Assembly (NCBI GenBank): GCA_944323165.1
Contig: CALURK010000002.1
Location: forward strand, 124,001 to 188,000
Direction of reading: 5' to 3'
From: Candidatus Gastranaerophilales bacterium
GTDB taxonomy: Bacteria; Cyanobacteriota; Vampirovibrionia; Gastranaerophilales; Gastranaerophilaceae
DNA length: 64,000 bases
Shown here: piece by piece, positions 12,408 to 62,532 of the stretch
Position numbering within the stretch: position 1 is the first letter of the stretch
Layout: every line of letters begins with the position of its first letter
The notes under the pieces: model-generated
What the model was told of the DNA's origin: nothing
The model's database searches: none
Seen by the model: only the letters and a program-made list of their open reading frames with translations
Made by a program: the position numbers and the translations under genes

Positions 12408-12532
12408 TTTTTTCTCCGAACCAAACTTTCTGTGTATATTAGAACTTTTCGACAAAGAGTTTTTTTTCTTTAACAAATTTTTATGTAAATCATCCGAATG
12501 GGGTAAATTATTAAAAAAATAATTTGTAAAGA

Positions 12533-12586
12533 TTTGTAACAATTTTTGATAATATCCTAAAGTTTTAGCGCATTTTAGCCGTAATA
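12533..12586 (+). promoter_or_regulatory. Three-part FliA/SigD-like promoter (copy 1)
   Basis: TTTGTAACAA at 12533-12542, then 15 bp, TAAAGTTT at 12558-12565, then 12 bp, GCCGTAAT at 12578-12585. The last two boxes match the sigma-28 class consensus (TAAAGTTT, N11, GCCGATAA). The predicted start is about 35 bases before the ATG at 12631. The same arrangement precedes three other unknown genes in the window. Confidence 0.75.
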
Positions 12587-12630: not shown

Positions 12631-14124
12631 ATGGGAATGGCAGCATCACAAGTTAGATTATTGCAGCTGACTAGCCGAAAAAATGACATCGGTTATCAGT
12701 TACAAGACTTGTCTTTGCAAAAAACGTCGCTTTCGAGGGATATGAAGAGGGTTACAAAAAATTATCAAAATGCATTAAGTTCCAAGACATTAAAATGGTC
12801 AAATAATGGCGGAGCTTCTTATGTAGATTTAAGCTATGCAACATTAATGCGTCCAGGCTCTTCTAATCAGAATAATCCATACTTATTAACAGATAGTTCT
12901 GGTAAAGTTGTTGTTGATAGCAAGTATCAAAAGTATGCAGAGATGATTTCTCCTGAGGGTAAAGCCGGAGGAAATTGGGATTCTGTAAGGACTCAGGTTC
13001 TATCGAGTTTAACGGGAATTTCTGCAGACAAAATTGATAATTCAGTTTTAACAGAGGATAGTGTAAATGCTGCAGCTGATAATGTCAATGCTCTAATGGA
13101 AAAAGTTGATGAATTACAAGCAGAAGCAGAAATTAGTGGAACAGATATTGATTTCATGGCGGAATGTTTTGGCTCGAGCTGGACAGGTGCTGACGAATCA
13201 AATGATTTGACGAGCGCATCGACAATAGCAGAGGACTATAAAGGTGATAGTACTGTATGGCTTTTGGGAACAGATTTAAGCTCTTCTAAAACAAAATTAA
13301 AATCAATGCTCGATCAAATAGAAACCAGAGTAAGCGCATATTTGTCAGATGATGACATATCAGCTTTTCAAGAAGCCTGTGAAACTACTTTAAGTAATTA
13401 TGACACCTACTTAGAAACGTCAGGTGAAGATTGTGGCTCTACTTGCCAAACTTCAAAAAATACAAAAGGTGATACTGCCGGATATTATGTAGTAAATATT
13501 CAACTGTTAATGACGGAGCTGTTAAGAAACTATAGAAGTGCCGGTGGTACAACAGATACTAATAGTAGAGGAGAAGAGGTCTACTGTTGGTATGATAAGA
13601 ATTCTAAAGAATATCAGGCTTATATAGAAAAACTAGAAGAATTAGAAGCTGCAAAAGAAAACTACAATACATCGGTAGATATCAACAATCAGGTTCTTAC
13701 AGCAGAAGAGGAAAGTTTGATAAACTTCTATGATCAAATGTTTTCTGCAATAGCAGACAATGGCTGGGTTGCTGATGCACAAGTTGAAGATAATAATTAC
13801 TTAAATAACATGTTGCAAAACAATCAGTATTACATAACAACAATGGATTCAAAAGAAAATAGTGAAGGGGAAGAATATTTTGAATACAGTACAGATATTG
13901 CTTCCAACTTTGAAAATATTTTTTCTGTAAACGATACAAATGCTCAAAATGATGCTCAAGTTCAATACGAATATGAAAAGAGTGTTATTAATGAAAAAGA
14001 ATCTCGTATTGATACGAGAATGGAGAACTTACAGACGGAACAATCTGCGATTAATGAAATGATAAAAGGTATTGAGTCTGTAAGAAATGACAACACTGAA
14101 AGAACATTCAGCATATTCTCATAA
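12631..14124 (+). CDS. MGM-x-ASQ family large unknown protein, copy 1
   Basis: Unrecognised 497-residue protein, homologous at both ends to the gene at 47620-49203. The N-terminus reads MGMAASQVRLLQL and continues as an amphipathic coiled coil (residues 1-55); the C-terminal 50 residues are another helical coil (INEKESRIDTRMENLQTEQ..., ending in FSIFS). The middle is Ser/Thr/Asp/Asn-rich with few hydrophobic stretches. There is no cleavable signal peptide. N- and C-terminal helices around a variable centre, plus a FliA-like promoter, resemble rod, hook or flagellin-type export substrates, but this is analogy only. AAAGGA lies 13 bases before the ATG. Confidence 0.6.
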   Translation: MGMAASQVRLLQLTSRKNDIGYQLQDLSLQKTSLSRDMKRVTKNYQNALSSKTLKWSNNGGASYVDLSYATLMRPGSSNQNNPYLLTDSSGKVVVDSKYQKYAEMISPEGKAGGNWDSVRTQVLSSLTGISADKIDNSVLTEDSVNAAADNVNALMEKVDELQAEAEISGTDIDFMAECFGSSWTGADESNDLTSASTIAEDYKGDSTVWLLGTDLSSSKTKLKSMLDQIETRVSAYLSDDDISAFQEACETTLSNYDTYLETSGEDCGSTCQTSKNTKGDTAGYYVVNIQLLMTELLRNYRSAGGTTDTNSRGEEVYCWYDKNSKEYQAYIEKLEELEAAKENYNTSVDINNQVLTAEEESLINFYDQMFSAIADNGWVADAQVEDNNYLNNMLQNNQYYITTMDSKENSEGEEYFEYSTDIASNFENIFSVNDTNAQNDAQVQYEYEKSVINEKESRIDTRMENLQTEQSAINEMIKGIESVRNDNTERTFSIFS

Positions 14125-30136: not shown

Positions 30137-31666
30137 TTAAAATTCTTCTTTTTTATCTTTATCCTGAGCAGTAGAATTAGTTCCACTTGTATTGCTGCTG
30201 TTATTACTATTATTATTTGTAGGTATGCCAGCTGCTAGACCTGTACCAACTTCTGGCTCTTCACCTTCTTGCGTGCCTAGTTTTGCAAGCGTTTCAGCTG
30301 ACTCTTCTCCCAGTTGTTCTACAACTTCTTCTGGATTTTCCATGTCTTCAGGCATTTCGAGCTCGAAATTCTCAAGACCTTCCATAGATCCTTCGTATCC
30401 GGCTATAGACTCATCATATATATCGTTTGTAGCAGAATTCAAATCTTGAGTATCTTTTCTCATATCAATTTCTGTTCCGACTTGCCCTGCCCAATCAAAT
30501 TGCTCTTTGGTCCCGATTCCACTCATTACAGCTGCGGCGGTGCCCATTCCAACAAAACCCCAAGCCCAAGCGGTAAAGATACCTCCAGAAGCTGCAAATT
30601 TACTAGCGCTCAGAGCATGTTTTGTTCCTGAAAGTGCATTTATAGATTGTGAAGCACCTTCAACATAGCACATGTTTTGTGTTGATGTATCAAAACTTTC
30701 AGCGTAATCTGTCAGACCTTGAACTTCTCCAACAGTAGAGGCCGCATTGTCATAATCTTCTTGGTATGTGCCCATATCACTATATATATCACCGACTGTT
30801 TCTGTCGTTTCTTCTTGTGTGTCTTGTATACCTATGCCAAGTTCTTGCATAAGAGGTACAAGTTCTTTTAATAACTCTTTTTCGCTATCAGTAAGCTGCT
30901 CTCCTGACTTCATTTTTTCCATTAAAGCTTCATAAGAAGCTTTGTACATATCATATTCAGATTTATTTTCTTCTATAGTTTCGTTAGCATCTTCATTATA
31001 GCACTGAGCTTCATCAGATAGTGCGTTGACTTCATCACTTGCATAACTCATTTCTTCTTGAGCGCTATATAGAGCATTATTTGCATTTACCATTTCATCT
31101 TGTAGTGCATCACAGGCTTTTTTTTGTTCCTTATTGGGCTTGTTTGCTGTATAATTAGCAGCATTAGCGAGTGATAGTGGCGCTCCGATGATCCATCCGC
31201 CAGCTGTTGTGGAACACGCATCTGAATCTATAGCATTTTTGCCTAATAAGCTAGCGGTTGCGTTTGCAGCGCCTGCGGTAACTGTAGTAGAAACTCCTGA
31301 CAGTGCTCCATTTAGTACACCTGTAGAAAGTATTCCGCTCCCAAGACTCATTGCTCCGTCTACAACAGTTCTTGTGACTTGTCCGCCTTGTTTGCCATCA
31401 TATCCTGTTTTATCTTTTGCCTGATCTCTACCATCCTCTTTTGCAGTAGAAAAATCATCATCCTCTATTTCATAGGCATTCTCATCGTCCATCGCTGTTG
31501 CATGCCAGTTTTTTAGTTCACTGTTCCAAGTTTGAGTTATCTCTCCCATATCTTTAGCAGAGATTCCCATGGTATTGTTACCATAATTGTAGTTATACCA
31601 GCATTTGTAAGCGTATGATTGTGAGTTTAATGCATTGCTTAAGTTAAACGAATCTTGAATTGCCAT
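30137..31666 (-). CDS. Large unknown protein of the FliA-like promoter group (509 aa)
   Basis: No family recognised. The N-terminus is aromatic and Asn/Ser-rich with no signal peptide. Residues about 95-175 contain Gly/Ala/Ser/Thr-rich weakly hydrophobic stretches (VDGAMSLGSGILSTGVLNGALSG and TAGGWIIGAPLSLAN). A Glu/Asp-rich helical region (about 180-320) follows, then another Gly/Ala helix (about 355-385: FTAWAWGFVGMGTAAAVMSG), and an acidic then Asn/Ser-rich tail. This alternation of amphipathic coils and Gly/Ala hydrophobic helices resembles translocator-type secreted proteins, by analogy only. GGAGGG precedes the ATG at 31666. Confidence 0.6.
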   Translation of the reverse strand: MAIQDSFNLSNALNSQSYAYKCWYNYNYGNNTMGISAKDMGEITQTWNSELKNWHATAMDDENAYEIEDDDFSTAKEDGRDQAKDKTGYDGKQGGQVTRTVVDGAMSLGSGILSTGVLNGALSGVSTTVTAGAANATASLLGKNAIDSDACSTTAGGWIIGAPLSLANAANYTANKPNKEQKKACDALQDEMVNANNALYSAQEEMSYASDEVNALSDEAQCYNEDANETIEENKSEYDMYKASYEALMEKMKSGEQLTDSEKELLKELVPLMQELGIGIQDTQEETTETVGDIYSDMGTYQEDYDNAASTVGEVQGLTDYAESFDTSTQNMCYVEGASQSINALSGTKHALSASKFAASGGIFTAWAWGFVGMGTAAAVMSGIGTKEQFDWAGQVGTEIDMRKDTQDLNSATNDIYDESIAGYEGSMEGLENFELEMPEDMENPEEVVEQLGEESAETLAKLGTQEGEEPEVGTGLAAGIPTNNNSNNSSNTSGTNSTAQDKDKKEEF

Positions 31667-31698: not shown

Positions 31699-31751
31699 TT
31701 TACGGCATTCCTTTACTAAAACTTTAGCTTTTTTATCAAAATTTTTACAAA
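31699..31751 (-). promoter_or_regulatory. Three-part FliA/SigD-like promoter (copy 2)
   Basis: On the minus strand TTTGTAAAAA (31742-31751), 15 bp, TAAAGTTT (31719-31726), 12 bp, GCCGTAAA (31699-31706). It is about 30 bases from the ATG at 31666 and begins directly after the rqcH stop. Confidence 0.75.
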
Positions 31752-31754
31752 ACT

Positions 31755-33170
31755 TTACACTAATACTTCTTTTTCGTTTTTGTATGTGACGTAACCTAGT
31801 GGGGAGTTTGGAGGCTTGCGTAAATTTTTGGCTTTAGTATAGATTACTCCTACTTTTGAAGGCTGTTGAGCGCTTGAATATTTCCGGGCCAGTTTGCAGC
31901 ATTCATACAAAACTGCTTCATCAGGTTCTTGTATGTCGGGAACTTTTAATAAAACATGGGAGCCTGCACACAGGCGAGTGTGAAACCAGTAATCATTATC
32001 TTTAGCAAGTTTTGATATTATGTAATCATTTTGTTTATTGTTTCTTCCTATGTAAACAACAAAATTATTAATATTGGTTTTTAAGATTGTTTTTTCATCT
32101 TGCTTTTTAGGCTTTGTCTTTTCAGGTTCCAATTCAGAATTTATGTCTTCGAAATCGTTATTAGTTTTGGCTTCCTCAATACTATACAAAATATTTTCTA
32201 AGTATTCTTTTTCAATTTTTAAATTGTTTAGTAGTTCTTGCGATTTTTCTTTTGTAGATTTTGACTTCGTATACAATTTAAAATATCTCTGTGCATTTTC
32301 GTTAAGAGTTTTTGTTTTATCAAGTTCGATTATTATGTTTTGATTATTGATATAGTCAAAAACTTCTATCTGCGGTTGATAATCATGTCTTTGGTATAGG
32401 TTGGCGGTCAAAAGCTCGCCGTAGAGCTTATATTTGTCAGTATTATCACGTTTTTTTAAAAGGGCTTCTATTTTGTTTATTGAATTTTTAACCTTTTTTA
32501 GCTTTGGAAGTACGATTGCCGTTAATCTTGCTCGTTCGGTTTTAATATTTGTATCTTCCTGAATTTTTGCATAATAATTATCAATTGCTTCGTTAACGCT
32601 AGTTGTCTTCATCTTTAGAATTTGAGATTCTGAAGGCGGATTAGGAGTTGTTGGCGGGTAAATATATTTTAGTCCACCTTGTAGCTCTCTATATCTGCTT
32701 TTTTCTGCTCCTACGTTATGCGCACAGCCTATAATCATTTTGCTTATTCTGTCATATAAAATTACGTTTGAATGCTTTCCCATCAATTCGATACTCAGAC
32801 AGAGTGAGCGTTCTTGAGAAAATTCATCCATAGTTTCAAAATGAAATTCTATTATTCTTTCGTTATTTATTGCCAAAGTATCAGTAATCTTGCAGCCTTC
32901 AAGGTATTTTCTCAGTAGCATACAAAACATCGGCGGGTGTTTGGGAATCTTTAATCTTCTTTTTTCTTCATTTTCTGCAGACATAAAGCAAATATGATAT
33001 GTTTGCGGGCAAATATTTATGTATAACTTTCGGCTTTCTCCGTTGTTTCTAAGAGAGAATATAAAATCCCTTCTTGTAGGCTGCTGGATTTTTTGGAGGC
33101 GTGAACCTATTATAAAATCGATATTTTCATCTATAAATGCTTTTAAAGTAAGACAGTCTATATTAATCAA
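31755..33170 (-). CDS. rqcH: NFACT/Rqc2 family protein (RqcH-like)
   Basis: Family members bind stalled 50S-peptidyl-tRNA and add alanine tails in ribosome quality control. Visible are the NFACT-N domain (start INIDCLTLKAFIDENI; KIPKHPPMFCMLLRKYLEG near 77-95), a coiled-coil middle with conserved LYGELLTANLY (about 246-256), and the NFACT-R domain with VYIGRNNKQNDYIISKLAKDNDYWFH (about 375-400) and GSHV. In the last domain, where many homologues have PGSHV, this one has AGSHV. At 471 residues it is on the short side (most are about 550-580). The start is TTG at 33170 after GGAGAG, overlapping the preceding small gene by four bases. Confidence 0.88.
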   Translation of the reverse strand: MINIDCLTLKAFIDENIDFIIGSRLQKIQQPTRRDFIFSLRNNGESRKLYINICPQTYHICFMSAENEEKRRLKIPKHPPMFCMLLRKYLEGCKITDTLAINNERIIEFHFETMDEFSQERSLCLSIELMGKHSNVILYDRISKMIIGCAHNVGAEKSRYRELQGGLKYIYPPTTPNPPSESQILKMKTTSVNEAIDNYYAKIQEDTNIKTERARLTAIVLPKLKKVKNSINKIEALLKKRDNTDKYKLYGELLTANLYQRHDYQPQIEVFDYINNQNIIIELDKTKTLNENAQRYFKLYTKSKSTKEKSQELLNNLKIEKEYLENILYSIEEAKTNNDFEDINSELEPEKTKPKKQDEKTILKTNINNFVVYIGRNNKQNDYIISKLAKDNDYWFHTRLCAGSHVLLKVPDIQEPDEAVLYECCKLARKYSSAQQPSKVGVIYTKAKNLRKPPNSPLGYVTYKNEKEVLV

Positions 33171-36887: not shown

Positions 36888-37793
36888 TTATACGATAAAG
36901 AATAAAAAGATTAAAGCTCCGACGGCAAGTGCCGGGACATACGGCAAGTAGTTTCTATTTTCGACTTTTTTGATGTTTTTAATAATGGAGTATGCCAAAG
37001 CTATTCCTGTAATTATTAAAAAAGCAAGTGTATAGTAGTTTTGCCAAGCAGCTTCCATTATTACAACAGATAGTGCAAACAATACTCCTAATATACAGGT
37101 CATTTTATTATTATTTTTATATTGATTGTAGAAAAATATAGGTAGTATAAAAATCATAGATGATATAAATCCCAATAGTAATACTAGTATGATTTCTTTT
37201 CCGAAAATAGCACCTAATGCTCCCGCAACGTATGTGTCAGCTTCACCCATGGCTCGTTTATCCGTAAAAAGATAGCCGGAGCGGGCTAGTATTTCAAGAA
37301 TTATTACGCCTATTAATAAGCCGATAATAGAGTTTATAAACCCACCCATGCCTGAAGTGACAGCGTTGAATATAATACCGCTAATTCCCATTGCAATTGC
37401 TATATTGCAGTCTACGAGTTGTTCTTTTAAGTCTGTACCAGTCATTATTATTAAGCACGAAATCCAAAAAAGGGTAAATAAAGCTTTTAAACTTATTCCA
37501 AACTTAACAAAAGTAAAAGCAAATAAAAGCATTGTAATTATTTCGACAATCGGATATTGTATACTAATTTTTTCTTTACAAAAATAACATTTGCCGCCTA
37601 ACAAAATATATGAAATTACCGGAATGTTGTGCCAGAATAACAATTTATTTCCACATTTTGGACATTTGGAAGGTGGAAAAACTATGCTTTCACCAGATAA
37701 AGTTCTTAAAATAACAACATTATAGAAACTTCCAAGACATAATCCTAAAATACATATCCAGAACAAAATGTAGTGAAATGAATCAATCATCAT
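36888..37793 (-). CDS. pilD: Prepilin peptidase (type IV leader peptidase)
   Basis: Cleaves and methylates prepilin-like proteins at the inner membrane. The N-terminal domain has two CxxC pairs, CPKCGN and CYFCKE (about residues 43-75); the A24 aspartyl protease domain has the catalytic Asp residues in GTDLKEQLVD and GEADTYVAG. About eight membrane segments. The start overlaps the end of the sigma factor gene by 11 bases; ATG at 37793 or the next codon is used with GAGGAG immediately before. Pilin genes are not in the window. Confidence 0.93.
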   Translation of the reverse strand: MMIDSFHYILFWICILGLCLGSFYNVVILRTLSGESIVFPPSKCPKCGNKLLFWHNIPVISYILLGGKCYFCKEKISIQYPIVEIITMLLFAFTFVKFGISLKALFTLFWISCLIIMTGTDLKEQLVDCNIAIAMGISGIIFNAVTSGMGGFINSIIGLLIGVIILEILARSGYLFTDKRAMGEADTYVAGALGAIFGKEIILVLLLGFISSMIFILPIFFYNQYKNNNKMTCILGVLFALSVVIMEAAWQNYYTLAFLIITGIALAYSIIKNIKKVENRNYLPYVPALAVGALIFLFFIV

Positions 37794-47619: not shown

Positions 47620-49203
47620 TTACCCATTAAATGTTTTATATGATGCTTCGATGTTATCATTGATAACTTTTTCTACAGCTTCAATTTCTGTAGTAATCTG
47701 TGTTCTTTCGTTATCAAGTCTTTGAAGTTTTAATTCAAGGTTTCTATCTTCTTGTTGTATGATTTCTGTTTTAGCGTTAATTTCTTTATTCTTTTGATCA
47801 TACAAGTAGGTTTCATATTCATATTCTGCATAAGCATCTTTATAAGCATCATTATCTGTTACAGTTGCTGCTTCAAGATTTACAGTTTCATATCTAGTAA
47901 CTTTGCCATCTTCCACTATTGGTATACCAATTGAAACGATCCTGCCTGAAGAGTCAAATGTTAGCTTACATCCACTATTTTCTGTAGCTTCGGTATATGT
48001 ACCGTTCGAAACTAATGAAAATACTTCAACCCTTGCTTGACCAGTACCACTGGAAATCATTTGCTGTTGTTGTAAATCTGCGGTTTTTACAAAGCAAGGA
48101 ACTTGTGTACCAGCTTCATTTTGTTGATAAAACATCTTAAAATCACGAAGAATAGCTGTTTCATCAGGTTTTCCGTTATCATTTCGATACTCTGGATATG
48201 AGTTTGCTATTGCTTCTAAAACTCCTTGGTAAGAAGAACTAAGCAGATCTTGCGATATAGCATAAGTTATATTTCCACCAACTGTTGTTCCTTGATTTGC
48301 CTTATCCGGATCATACTCACTATTCTTTAATTGTGTAGAACCGTCGCCATTAGGAGTTTCTTTATATATTTCTGTAACATCTCCGAAACTGTAAACTGTA
48401 TTACCATTTGCATCTTTACCGACTTCTGTACAAGTTATCTGCTTTGCATATCCATTTTCATCTGTCGTAAAGAATGTATAGCCACTTATTTGGTCGGCGT
48501 ACAAACCACCTTCATAATAGGTTTTAGCGCTTTGGTTATATGTCCAGTCTTGTGTGCTTTCACTATCCCAATCGTAGTCAGGATCGGATTTCTTTACTTC
48601 ACCAACTGTTGTCTGGATAAATACAAATTGTCCTGCACCAGCATTTTTTATAGCATCATCATAGTCTTTTGCTTGTATAAAATCACCATTATCGTTTTGA
48701 TAATAATAATATCCATCATAGTCAGAAACTTCACCATTAACTCCGTGCATGATGCTTTGGTTATCATTGTTTACTTCGTTAGATTGTAATTCATCGACAT
48801 CTTCGTAATAAGTTACAGGAGTCGGTACTGTATAATTATTAATTTTGTTTACATAGTAGTACTCAGGTATGTTATAAGATTCTACAGATTGGAAAGTACC
48901 ACCTTTAATGCAAGCACCATTCTTTTGGTATTTTATTTCAACATTATATGTATCATCTTTTTCTGGAATAATAGATCCTAATGTGAATTCAGAATCACCA
49001 ATCGTACCAGAATATTCGATGGTTTGGAAATCTGTTGTGGTTGGCGGGGTCGGAACTGTCATTGATAGCAAGCTGTTGTATAAAGCTGTTGCTTGTTGTG
49101 ATAGTACTGTTCTTGCCTGGTTGATTTGTTGACCTTGATATTCAAGGTTAGATTGTCGTGCCTGTAAACTTAACAATCTTGCTTGTGATGCTGACATTCC
49201 CAT
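47620..49203 (-). CDS. MGM-x-ASQ family large unknown protein, copy 2
   Basis: 527-residue paralogue of the gene at 12631-14124. It starts MGMSASQARLLSLQARQ followed by an amphipathic coil to about residue 45, and ends with a helical coil (QQEDRNLELKLQRLDNERTQITTEIEAVEKVINDNIEASYK) and FNG. The middle is Asp/Asn/Tyr/Gly/Thr-rich with no Cys cluster and no membrane segment. Both ends are conserved between the two genes and the centre is not, as expected for proteins that share an export or assembly signal and expose different centres. No signal peptide. GGAG precedes the ATG at 49203. Confidence 0.6.
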   Translation of the reverse strand: MGMSASQARLLSLQARQSNLEYQGQQINQARTVLSQQATALYNSLLSMTVPTPPTTTDFQTIEYSGTIGDSEFTLGSIIPEKDDTYNVEIKYQKNGACIKGGTFQSVESYNIPEYYYVNKINNYTVPTPVTYYEDVDELQSNEVNNDNQSIMHGVNGEVSDYDGYYYYQNDNGDFIQAKDYDDAIKNAGAGQFVFIQTTVGEVKKSDPDYDWDSESTQDWTYNQSAKTYYEGGLYADQISGYTFFTTDENGYAKQITCTEVGKDANGNTVYSFGDVTEIYKETPNGDGSTQLKNSEYDPDKANQGTTVGGNITYAISQDLLSSSYQGVLEAIANSYPEYRNDNGKPDETAILRDFKMFYQQNEAGTQVPCFVKTADLQQQQMISSGTGQARVEVFSLVSNGTYTEATENSGCKLTFDSSGRIVSIGIPIVEDGKVTRYETVNLEAATVTDNDAYKDAYAEYEYETYLYDQKNKEINAKTEIIQQEDRNLELKLQRLDNERTQITTEIEAVEKVINDNIEASYKTFNG

Positions 49204-49244: not shown

Positions 49245-49297
49245 ATTACGGCATTTTTTTATAAAAACTTTAGGAATTTTAATAATATTGTTACAAA
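49245..49297 (-). promoter_or_regulatory. Three-part FliA/SigD-like promoter (copy 3)
   Basis: On the minus strand TTTGTAACAA (49288-49297), 15 bp, TAAAGTTT (49265-49272), 12 bp, GCCGTAAT (49245-49252), about 40 bases before the ATG at 49203. Confidence 0.75.
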
Positions 49298-49421
49298 AGT
49301 TAATAATATACCTCTGAAACCCAGTAAAATCAGACTTTTTATTTTTACAGAATTTCTGCTTAATATTCTAAAAAGCCTGTATCCTTTCGTTGTTAAACTC
49401 TTAAAGCAAGGTTTTTTATTC

Positions 49422-58973: not shown

Positions 58974-61496
58974 TTATGAAATAAGATTTTGATATAACAG
59001 TTTATCAAAGAAGTATAATGTAAGTTGTACAAGTTTATCCATGTCTATTTGTCTATACATAATACTATTCTTGCCCTTACGAGTATCACTACCACCCCAG
59101 TCTTTATTATTTCCGTCTTCTACTCTGCTATCATTATAGCCGGTACCATATGGACAGTCTGGAGTATTGTAATTTTCACATACATCCATAGCTTTTTGTT
59201 GAGCTTCCCTAAATACAGATGTTACCAGTGTTGAATCAATGCTAGAATACTTTTTAATGACTCTACTTAATAGTTCGCTCATTGTAACCTGATAATCAGG
59301 ATCATCTTTTTCATTTGCAAGGTGTACGGTTCCATCTGATGAAATTTCATAGCCACCTATAAGTCTTAAGGCTTCATCATTTCCTCTAGTAGTTTTAGTT
59401 CCATAGTGGGTAAGACCTGTAGTTAAGCTAGAATCAGCATAAGCTGTGTGTTCTGTAAATATTTCCAGATATTCCGGATTTGTTTCTAATTTATTAAATA
59501 TAGCTTCTAAATTATCTAAAACAGTTGTTATAAATGAAGCTCTGGAGTTTTTAGTAGAAGAATTATATGTGTTATAAGTTGTTATCCAAGCTGCTTGAAT
59601 AAGTTTTTTTACAACACTTTCTCCACCCATTTGTTCGAGAGCTGCTTTGCCTTCAGAGGTTTTATTAAATTCTTCAAGAACTTTATTTACAAGGTTGTTG
59701 TATACTGCAGTTGTTTCTTCTTCTTGGAATACAATATTTCCATTGGTATCCATTCCAAATTCTGTATGCATTTTGGATGAATTACCTATTATAGAAGCAA
59801 GGCCGTTTGTTCTAATGTTTTCGAAAGTATCAGCTAATGTACTAGCAGCATCTTTGGTATTTTCACTTTGCTCCTCAGCTATGACTTTTTCTGCAGTATC
59901 TAGGTAATCTGCTAACTTACCATCTGTATCTATATTTCTTAAAAGTGTTACTAAATCATCCATTAAATCATTGCCATCAGTGTAAGCGTTAATTAAGTCT
60001 TTATAATTGCTGCTTGTTAAAGTCTTTGAACCTAGTTTTAATCCATTAGCTGATCCCAATACACTTTCTATTGCAGCTATGCAGGTTTCTTTATATTCTG
60101 CTAATTCTCTGTCTGAAATAAATGGATCTTCTGTAACAATTTCAATAGCGTTGTCTACAGCTTCAGAATTTCCACCCATAAGGTAACTTTCTATGTAATC
60201 CTGTAATTGAGCTTTAAACTCATCAGTATCAGCTCCTGAAGCTATGAAACTTGCAATAAAGCTTTCCAGTGAACTATTAAGATCTTTTAGAAGGGTTCTA
60301 ATTGTTTCTTTGTCTAGTTTATAATCACCATATTCACTGTTGTATAAATCTAGTCCTAATCTTGTTTTTACTTCAGATGCCCTTGTTTGTGTTATACCGT
60401 TTGCGAGTTCATCCGCAAGGCTGTCAAGTAATTCCTCAGCTTCTTCAGTATAAAATTCTTCTAAAACAGGATTTTTCATATCATCTGTAACAAAGCTTGA
60501 TAAATCGAATTCTGCTATTTTAGTGTCTATGTCAAGAAAATCCTTGTAAGTTAATGAGTCTATAAAGCTTGTTTTTGCTTCTTCTATAACTGTTTTTAAT
60601 GCTGTGTTGAAATTTTCCTTTGCTTCTTCTGATCCAAAACTTATATCTTTAAAAATGGATTCAAATACGGTTTCAATAGATTGATCTATGTGTGTATCCA
60701 ATTTTGATTTTACAACAGCTTTTTGCAAATCATTAAGCTTAGAACCATTCTGTTGAGAATAGCCATATTGTGACAGATCAAATGCACTATCACTGCCTTC
60801 TCCCAAGCCTGCTGTAGCTAGATATGCATTAATGATTTCCTTTATCTCATTTTGAATATCTTCGAAGCTTGCATCTTCTGGAATTGAATTGTTAATATAG
60901 TTATTAATGATTTCATTCAATGTTGCATCATCATTGTAGTAATAGTCCAAATCTTTTAACATATCACCTGCAACCTGGCTCAAGTATTCAGAAGCAAAAA
61001 AGTCAGCGGTTGCCTTTCTTTCAATAGATTGAGAATTTTCTTCCAAGTAAGCTTCAAGGTCTTCTGCTTTACCGCCCTCTTTTATAAATTCTTCCACAAG
61101 CGAGCCTAAACTTTCTGATACTGATTTTTTCCAGCCCAAAGAGTCTGAAATTCCATTTGGAGCAGATAGTTTTGATGTAAAATCATTCAAGATTTCATAC
61201 ATTTCAATTTTGTTTTCCATATTGGCAATTTCTTTTGAATCCAAAGCATTTTTATTTTTTAGATTTGTGCCGCTTATTTTGCCACTTTGATTTGTGTCGA
61301 TAGTATTCCAAAAACTATTGATTAAGTCATTTTTTTCTGAATCAGTTGGTGTACCATCCCATTCAAAATTGTCTTCCATATAGTTTCTGAACTCGGTCTT
61401 TGTAACTGCTCCATCGCCGTTTGCATCGGCCTTATTATCCCAGTTACCCTGTTTTGCTAAGAATTGATACACTCTTGAAATACTATCATTTGACAT
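58974..61496 (-). CDS. Giant EF-hand protein of unknown function (840 aa)
   Basis: Begins with two EF-hand-type loops: DANGDGAVTKTE (24-35) and DTNQSGKISGTN (68-79), the second degenerate in its last ligand. The rest (about 90-750) is a long series of helices rich in Glu/Asp/Leu/Asn with repeated spacing such as FxxxLxxxIxxxIxxFI, containing no signal peptide and no membrane segment. The C-terminus (about 760-840) contains a Cys pair (VCENYNTPDC) and closes with hydrophobic LTLYFFDKLLYQNL. No family recognised. GGAG precedes ATG 61496. Confidence 0.6.
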   Translation of the reverse strand: MSNDSISRVYQFLAKQGNWDNKADANGDGAVTKTEFRNYMEDNFEWDGTPTDSEKNDLINSFWNTIDTNQSGKISGTNLKNKNALDSKEIANMENKIEMYEILNDFTSKLSAPNGISDSLGWKKSVSESLGSLVEEFIKEGGKAEDLEAYLEENSQSIERKATADFFASEYLSQVAGDMLKDLDYYYNDDATLNEIINNYINNSIPEDASFEDIQNEIKEIINAYLATAGLGEGSDSAFDLSQYGYSQQNGSKLNDLQKAVVKSKLDTHIDQSIETVFESIFKDISFGSEEAKENFNTALKTVIEEAKTSFIDSLTYKDFLDIDTKIAEFDLSSFVTDDMKNPVLEEFYTEEAEELLDSLADELANGITQTRASEVKTRLGLDLYNSEYGDYKLDKETIRTLLKDLNSSLESFIASFIASGADTDEFKAQLQDYIESYLMGGNSEAVDNAIEIVTEDPFISDRELAEYKETCIAAIESVLGSANGLKLGSKTLTSSNYKDLINAYTDGNDLMDDLVTLLRNIDTDGKLADYLDTAEKVIAEEQSENTKDAASTLADTFENIRTNGLASIIGNSSKMHTEFGMDTNGNIVFQEEETTAVYNNLVNKVLEEFNKTSEGKAALEQMGGESVVKKLIQAAWITTYNTYNSSTKNSRASFITTVLDNLEAIFNKLETNPEYLEIFTEHTAYADSSLTTGLTHYGTKTTRGNDEALRLIGGYEISSDGTVHLANEKDDPDYQVTMSELLSRVIKKYSSIDSTLVTSVFREAQQKAMDVCENYNTPDCPYGTGYNDSRVEDGNNKDWGGSDTRKGKNSIMYRQIDMDKLVQLTLYFFDKLLYQNLIS

Positions 61497-61538: not shown

Positions 61539-61590
61539 TTTACGTCACTTTTATGGAAAACTTTAGGAGTTTTGACTTTTTTGTTACAAA
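61539..61590 (-). promoter_or_regulatory. Three-part FliA/SigD-like promoter (copy 4)
   Basis: On the minus strand TTTGTAACAA (61581-61590), 15 bp, TAAAGTTT (61558-61565), 11 bp, GACGTAAA (61539-61546), about 42 bases before the ATG at 61496. The first box begins next to the stop of the upstream gene (61594). Confidence 0.7.
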
Positions 61591-61593
61591 AAT

Positions 61594-62532
61594 TTACATT
61601 TCATCTTTTAGTAAATGGGTAAAGTATTCGATTGTGTTATCTAAGCCTTTATATATGTCAATTTTAGGTTCCCAATTTAAATATTTCTTGGCTATAGAAA
61701 TATCTGGTTGACGTTTAGCGGGATCATCTTTGGGAAGTTGAGTATATATGATTTTTGATTTAGAATTTGTTATTTGTATAATGAGTTCAGCAAATTCTAA
61801 TATTGTCCGTTCGCTAGGATTTCCTAAATTGACAGGTCCTGTTAAATCTGATTCCATCATTTTTATTAAGCCATCTACCAAGTCGTCAACATAACAAAAA
61901 GAACGAGTTTGTGTGCCTTTTCCGTATATTGTTATGTCTTCATTTTTTAAAGCCTGTAAAATAAAGTTAGAAACAACTCTTCCGTCATCGGGCGTCATAT
62001 AAGGACCATAGGTGTTAAAGATTCTAACAATTTTTGTATCTAAACCCTCTGTTCTATGGTAATCCATTATAAGAGTTTCTGCACATCTTTTGCCTTCATC
62101 ATAGCAGCTTCTTATCCCGATTGGGTTTACATTTCCCCAATAACTTTCAACTTGCGGATGGATTAGGGGATCTCCATATACTTCACTTGTTGAAGCTTGG
62201 AGTATTTTGGCTTTGTATTTTTTCGCAAGCTCCAACATATTTATAATTCCAAGAACTGAAGTCTGCATTGTTTTTATAGGATCATACTGGTAATGAGGAG
62301 GACTTGCAGGACAGGCCAAATTATATATTTCATCAACTTCTATATCAATTGGGTTTATTATATCGTGTTCGATGAGTCGAAAATTAGGATTTTGAATAAA
62401 TTGTTCTATATTTTTATGTCTGCCTGTAAAAAAATTATCAAGACACATTACAATATTATTTTCACTTAGTAATTTTTTACATAAATGAGTGCCAATAAAA
62501 CCTGCTCCGCCTGTTATTAATATTTTCTTCAT
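61594..62532 (-). CDS. UDP-glucuronate decarboxylase-like (UDP-xylose synthase) NAD-dependent sugar epimerase
   Basis: Short-chain dehydrogenase-type enzyme of nucleotide-sugar metabolism. GGAGFIG (8-14) is the NAD-binding loop; the catalytic YxxxK is in SCYDEGKR (about 142-149); [18 protein letters not shown] and [14 protein letters not shown]-type segments ([15 protein letters not shown]) fit the UXS subgroup. 312 residues, cytoplasmic. It supplies sugars for cell-surface glycans, consistent with rmlA in the window. Confidence 0.88.

Follow-up and report, generated by a model that had tools for sequence, protein, structure and literature searches.

An RpaB-type operator combined with FliA promoters upstream of four genes in a non-photosynthetic gut relative of cyanobacteria

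Introduction

Promoters recognized by sigma-28 (FliA/SigD/WhiG) consist of the -35 element TAAAGTTT and a -10 element of the type GCCG(A/T)(T/A)A(A/T), and the consensus TAAAGTTT-n11-GCCGATAA was quoted by Hollands et al. 2009 (PMC2859248). Two E. coli promoters of this class, aer and trg, driving chemoreceptor genes, are directly activated by CRP bound upstream of the FliA core, with the CRP palindrome centred at -49.5 (PMC2859248). In photosynthetic cyanobacteria the OmpR-family response regulator RpaB, known for light and redox control of photosynthesis, binds the 18-bp direct repeat HLR1, KTTACAWW-N2-KTTACAWW (PMC13421787; PMC11633204). HLR1 located at -66 to -45 activates transcription, whereas HLR1 overlapping the core promoter represses it (PMC13421787). 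Gut Melainabacteria retain homologues of RpaA, RpaB and NblS without photosynthesis, and Di Rienzi et al. 2013 (PMC3787301) suggested that these proteins may have another function. Later papers repeat this remark (PMC5877343; PMC4040986), and those found in our literature search do not go further.

Here, we analyzed a 64,000-nucleotide stretch (referred to as the window) of a Candidatus Gastranaerophilales MAG, corresponding to positions 124001-188000 of contig C2 (CALURK010000002.1) of a 1.93-Mb, 99.8% complete assembly (GCA_944323165.1, here G000). The order represents the non-photosynthetic sister lineage of oxygenic cyanobacteria. The original prediction described a three-part, FliA/SigD-like promoter upstream of four large genes of unknown function, with the first box at a constant distance ascribed to an activator or an extra contact, and proposed a non-flagellar regulon, with two alternative sigma factors encoded in the window as candidate readers.

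Results

Anatomy of the four promoters

Inspection of the DNA confirmed the three-part element at 12533 (plus strand), 31751, 49297 and 61590 (all minus strand), with every box and spacing as predicted. The promoter parts and the downstream genes are as follows.

12523-12540, plus: HLR1-type direct repeat TTTGTAAAGATTTGTAAC, 18/18 match to WWTGTAAMNNWWTGTAAM, with TGTAA at -33 and -23 from TAAAG; it contains most of the predicted first box (12533-12542)
12558-12565, plus: sigma-28 -35 element TAAAGTTT
12578-12585, plus: sigma-28 -10 element GCCGTAAT, 12-bp spacer
12631-14124, plus: gene 1, 497-aa protein MGMAASQVRLL..., a divergent paralogue of gene 3 with conserved N- and C-termini
31744-31761, minus: HLR1-type repeat AGTGTAAAGTTTTGTAAA, 17/18, overlapping the stop codon of the upstream gene 31755-33170
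31719-31726, minus: sigma-28 -35 element TAAAGTTT
31699-31706, minus: sigma-28 -10 element GCCGTAAA, 12-bp spacer
30137-31666, minus: gene 2, 509-aa protein of unknown function, no Pfam match
49290-49307, minus: HLR1-type repeat with a good downstream half (TTTGTAAC) and a degenerate upstream half, not recovered when one mismatch to the repeat was allowed
49265-49272, minus: sigma-28 -35 element TAAAGTTT
49245-49252, minus: sigma-28 -10 element GCCGTAAT, 12-bp spacer
47620-49203, minus: gene 3, 527-aa protein MGMSASQARLL..., with conserved terminal helices and a variable beta middle, predicted to be flagellin-like in architecture
61583-61600, minus: HLR1-type repeat AATGTAAATTTTTGTAAC, 18/18, overlapping the end of the upstream gene 61594-62532
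61558-61565, minus: sigma-28 -35 element TAAAGTTT
61539-61546, minus: sigma-28 -10 element GACGTAAA, 11-bp spacer
58974-61496, minus: gene 4, 840-aa protein with an N-terminal EF-hand

The core TAAAGTTT-N11/12-GMCGTAA, searched as TAAAGTTTN{11,12}GMCGTAA, occurred four times in the window against a mean of 0.00 in 100 dinucleotide shuffles. The search for TGTAA-N18-TAAAGTTT with up to one mismatch returned only these four sites, all of them exact, against a shuffle mean of 0.79 and a maximum of 3. Statistics for the whole genome rest on pattern searches with the reversed pattern as the control, and only stretches around hits (designated L with a number) were examined. The pattern TAAAGTTTN{10,13}GNCGTAA gave 11 hits against 0, and TAAAGTTTN{8,15}GCCG gave 25 against 8, nearly all of the latter having an 11- or 12-bp spacer and a gene just downstream. 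The composite TGTAAN{17,19}TAAAGTTTN{9,13}CCG gave 21 against 0. The observation thus held, also against the criterion set in advance for its rejection, that hits should be no commoner than expected by chance.

The core is of the sigma-28 type and the genome encodes FliA

The second and third boxes correspond to the sigma-28 consensus, although three of the four window cores have a 12-bp rather than 11-bp spacer, one has GACG, and the -10 element is often GCCGTAA rather than GCCGATAA. A FliA-type sigma factor was found at C2:54130-54792, about 70 kb outside the window on the same contig, scoring 229 bits against a cut-off of 189.6. Neither transcription starts nor their dependence on FliA were measured, as RNA data were lacking. 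The sigma factors encoded in the window, at 37783 and 8703, were considered as the readers of the core, the latter lying 3 kb from the first promoter. However, the 37783 protein fits SigB/F/G models best and reached only 97.8 bits on the FliA/WhiG model, whereas the 8703 protein reached 52 bits and matched mainly region 4, in the C-terminal part of the sigma models. Recognition of the core by either of them is therefore very unlikely.

The lack of a flagellar gene in the window had been taken to indicate a non-flagellar regulon. We found that the genome carries six flagellin-domain genes, rod/hook-family genes, FlhA and FlhB above their equivalog cut-offs, and a FliH-like protein beside a second FlhA-like protein; the ORFs beside FlhB look by eye like FliR, FliQ and FliP. 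Two flagellin genes (C2:115266 and C5:62458, stretches L165 and L176) carry HLR1-type repeats upstream without a clear sigma-28 core, and one flagellin has a sigma-28-like core. Flagella in this order are known from the literature (PMC3787301; PMC5877343; PMC4040986), hence a purely non-flagellar regulon was rejected as unproven. Besides the two full-length FlhA-like proteins, a 493-aa protein (L019:11882-13363, minus) carries only the FlhA cytosolic domain (residues 133-492) behind an unrelated N-terminal part, possibly being a soluble adaptor of the export gate. Near the two FlhA loci on different contigs lie 81-aa ORFs (L015:15520-15765 and L017:16903-17148) that share at least their first 60 residues and showed no family match.

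The first box is half of an HLR1-type direct repeat

The original prediction overlooked that the first box is usually the downstream half of a 10-bp direct repeat, WWTGTAAM-NN-WWTGTAAM, which is the reverse complement of HLR1. Among 25 cores of this genome, picked by pattern and not by expression, TGTAA started at exactly -23 from TAAAG in 18 and at -33 in 13. Among 58 promoters of gene 3 orthologues with a core, it was at -23 in 53 and at -33 in 35. Two window sites match HLR1 at 18 of 18 positions, one at 17 of 18, with the mismatch in the end of the upstream gene, and one keeps only the downstream half. If transcription starts 6 bp after the -10 octamer, as mapped at E. coli aer (PMC2859248), the operator would span about -67 to -50 for the 11-bp spacer or -68 to -51 for the 12-bp spacer, next to or within the range in which RpaB activates.

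The possibility that the first box is only an A+T-rich UP-like element or an extra contact of FliA itself was considered, as the region is A+T-rich and some sigma-28 cores (e.g., in L005 and L040) lack this box. This seems unlikely since G at -22 carries 1.32 bits in the own-genome profile and the repeat keeps a strict 10-bp register. Moreover, the same direct repeat occurs about 30 more times in the genome away from sigma-28 cores, which a FliA contact would not explain.

A candidate regulator

The genome encodes three OmpR-type regulators (Trans_reg_C proteins). One of them, L151 (L151:964-1749; C2, about 14.2-15.0 kb), scored 356 bits on the NCBIfam RpaB model NF045944 against a cut-off of 330, whereas the two others, L152 and L153, scored about 200-211. 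The DNA-binding domain of L151 is 71-76% identical to RpaB of other phylum members, with the stretch RVVDVHISRLR unchanged, while that of L152 shows 29% identity. RpaB passed the cut-off in 111 of 116 genomes of the phylum and in only one of 14 control genomes. Binding of the first box by an RpaA-like protein, L152 or L153 instead of RpaB is conceivable, since RpaA and RpaB compete for some shared promoters in S. elongatus (PMC13421787). We regard it as unlikely because only L151 passes the RpaB cut-off, the motif equals HLR1 over 16-18 positions, and the HLR1 pattern is also enriched in phylum members whose RpaB is L151-like.

Distribution in the genome and the lineage

The HLR1 pattern TGTAAMNNWWTGTAAM occurred 51 times in this genome against 3 in controls, and about a third of the sites are on sigma-28 cores, hence RpaB would not be specific to them. 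The pattern occurred 1209 times against 179 in 49 other genomes of the family and 616 against 94 in 51 other phylum members, but was not enriched in three genomes of another family (f7) of the same class, despite the presence of RpaB in these relatives. In six stretches (L158, L164, L177, L184, L186 and the minus strand site of L191) the repeat is followed about 40 bp downstream by a shared TATACTTTATATATATAAG-like element before other unknown genes, representing a second HLR1-linked promoter type. In L172, L183 and L187 HLR1-type repeats lie upstream of genes whose starts look by eye like ribosomal proteins S15 and S10 and the RNA polymerase beta subunit, hinting at a growth role of the regulator.

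The composite promoter was found in 128 of 145 genomes of the order. Sixty-three of these summed to 505 occurrences against 5 in controls, although this subset was assembled by hand and includes the richest genera, so it is descriptive. The promoter is greatly multiplied in two genera, with 17-35 copies per genome in the genus of the window (g1) and 13-21 in a second one (g15), in comparison with mostly 0-9 elsewhere. FliA was detected in 144 of 145 genomes of the order, so the correlation of promoter counts with FliA presence had no contrast, and nearly universal RpaB likewise offered little contrast with HLR1 enrichment. Near-identical composite promoters sit at the ends of contigs C5 and C22 (L006 and L010) just before a gene start, as if a repeated gene of this regulon broke the assembly.

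The downstream genes

Some 24 genes follow such promoters in this genome. Most encode proteins without known function, some have EF-hands, RHS or MORN repeats, and in L026, L033 and L037 the promoters are followed by very short ORFs of 42-51 aa. Only 1 of 24 proteins has a strongly hydrophobic N-terminus by a simple hydropathy measure, against 12 of 53 window proteins, so Sec export is unlikely for them. Pfam and PDB sequence searches for genes 1-4 gave only EF-hands, an HrpF-like match below the cut-off and noise.

Relatives of gene 3 are overwhelmingly named Candidatus Gastranaerophilales, Melainabacteria or Cyanobacteria MAGs from animal guts. The alignment of this family showed nearly invariant N- and C-termini and a variable middle, and the AlphaFold2 model (mean pLDDT 85) predicted terminal helices at residues 2-46 and 451-526 around a beta-rich middle, as in flagellar axial proteins (flagellin, FlgL, FlgK). 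No match to a flagellar axial family was found in Pfam, nor any sequence match in the PDB. In the structural comparison, flagellins, FlgL, FliD and hook proteins made up much of the VIA list at Z 7-9, but long helices of Tc toxins scored higher (11.0) and the best Foldseek E-value was only 2.9e-3. As long helices match many things, the comparison is suggestive of a flagellar axial fold without deciding for or against it. We take the protein as flagellin-like in architecture, not as a member of a flagellar family.

Discussion

The interpretation given in the original prediction was supported in part: the FliA/SigD-type core, the activator-like upstream box and a genome-wide regulon of mostly unknown genes are upheld, whereas the window sigma factors as readers and the non-flagellar character are not, and the unspecified first box is identified here as an HLR1-type operator with RpaB as the specific candidate regulator. 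The best explanation, to which we assign a probability of about 0.7, is a two-input promoter in which FliA supplies specificity and RpaB, most likely phosphorylated by an NblS-type kinase, binds the direct repeat as a tandem dimer fixed 18 bp upstream of the -35 element and recruits or stabilizes FliA-RNA polymerase. The genes would thus be expressed only when FliA is free, which in known systems follows the flagellar hook-basal body stage, and RpaB is active. The regulon would comprise about 20-25 genes, plausibly encoding surface proteins or proteins exported by the flagellar export system, including the flagellin-like MGMSASQ family. Our analyses demonstrated the anatomy of the promoters, their exact spacing, conservation and genome-wide enrichment, and the presence of FliA and RpaB, but RpaB binding was not assayed and expression was not examined, so that binding, the positive sign, the AND logic, the kinase and the export route are inferences. 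The opposite sign, with RpaB repressing or only modulating, for example by blocking FliA-polymerase until dephosphorylated, seems unlikely, as the site lies wholly upstream of -35 at fixed spacing, the geometry of activation in cyanobacteria.

In comparison with previously described sigma-28 promoters, those presented here have an HLR1-type direct repeat at a fixed distance upstream and precede mostly unknown genes. In comparison with the RpaB regulon of photosynthetic cyanobacteria, the 18-bp repeat, its similar position and the orthologous RpaB are shared, but the host has no photosynthesis, the operator is fused to sigma-28 cores, and the candidate targets are unknown, flagellar or ribosomal genes rather than photosystem genes. 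Like CRP at aer and trg, the closest precedent found, the putative activator site lies at fixed spacing upstream of a FliA core, but it is an OmpR-type direct repeat centred near -58 at some twenty promoters. The parts are known, whereas the combination, the scale and the host are new, and no paper linking Gastranaerophilales to a promoter or regulon study was found in the library searched.

A more far-reaching reading, which we consider tentative, is that in non-photosynthetic gut Cyanobacteriota the RpaB system serves as an obligate co-activator of FliA-dependent promoters, gating a lineage-specific set of exported, flagellin-like and EF-hand surface proteins that leave through the flagellar export apparatus. 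This would suggest a non-photosynthetic role of RpaB that could predate photosynthesis.

Altogether, these results give RpaB a likely and testable job in a lineage without photosynthesis, naming candidate targets, a candidate sign and exact DNA sites for the question raised in 2013, which thereby becomes accessible to a simple binding assay. They also present a recurrent, genome-wide design in which an OmpR-type regulator is tied to a flagellar sigma factor, and mark out a set of unknown, probably surface-facing proteins of animal-gut bacteria for study.
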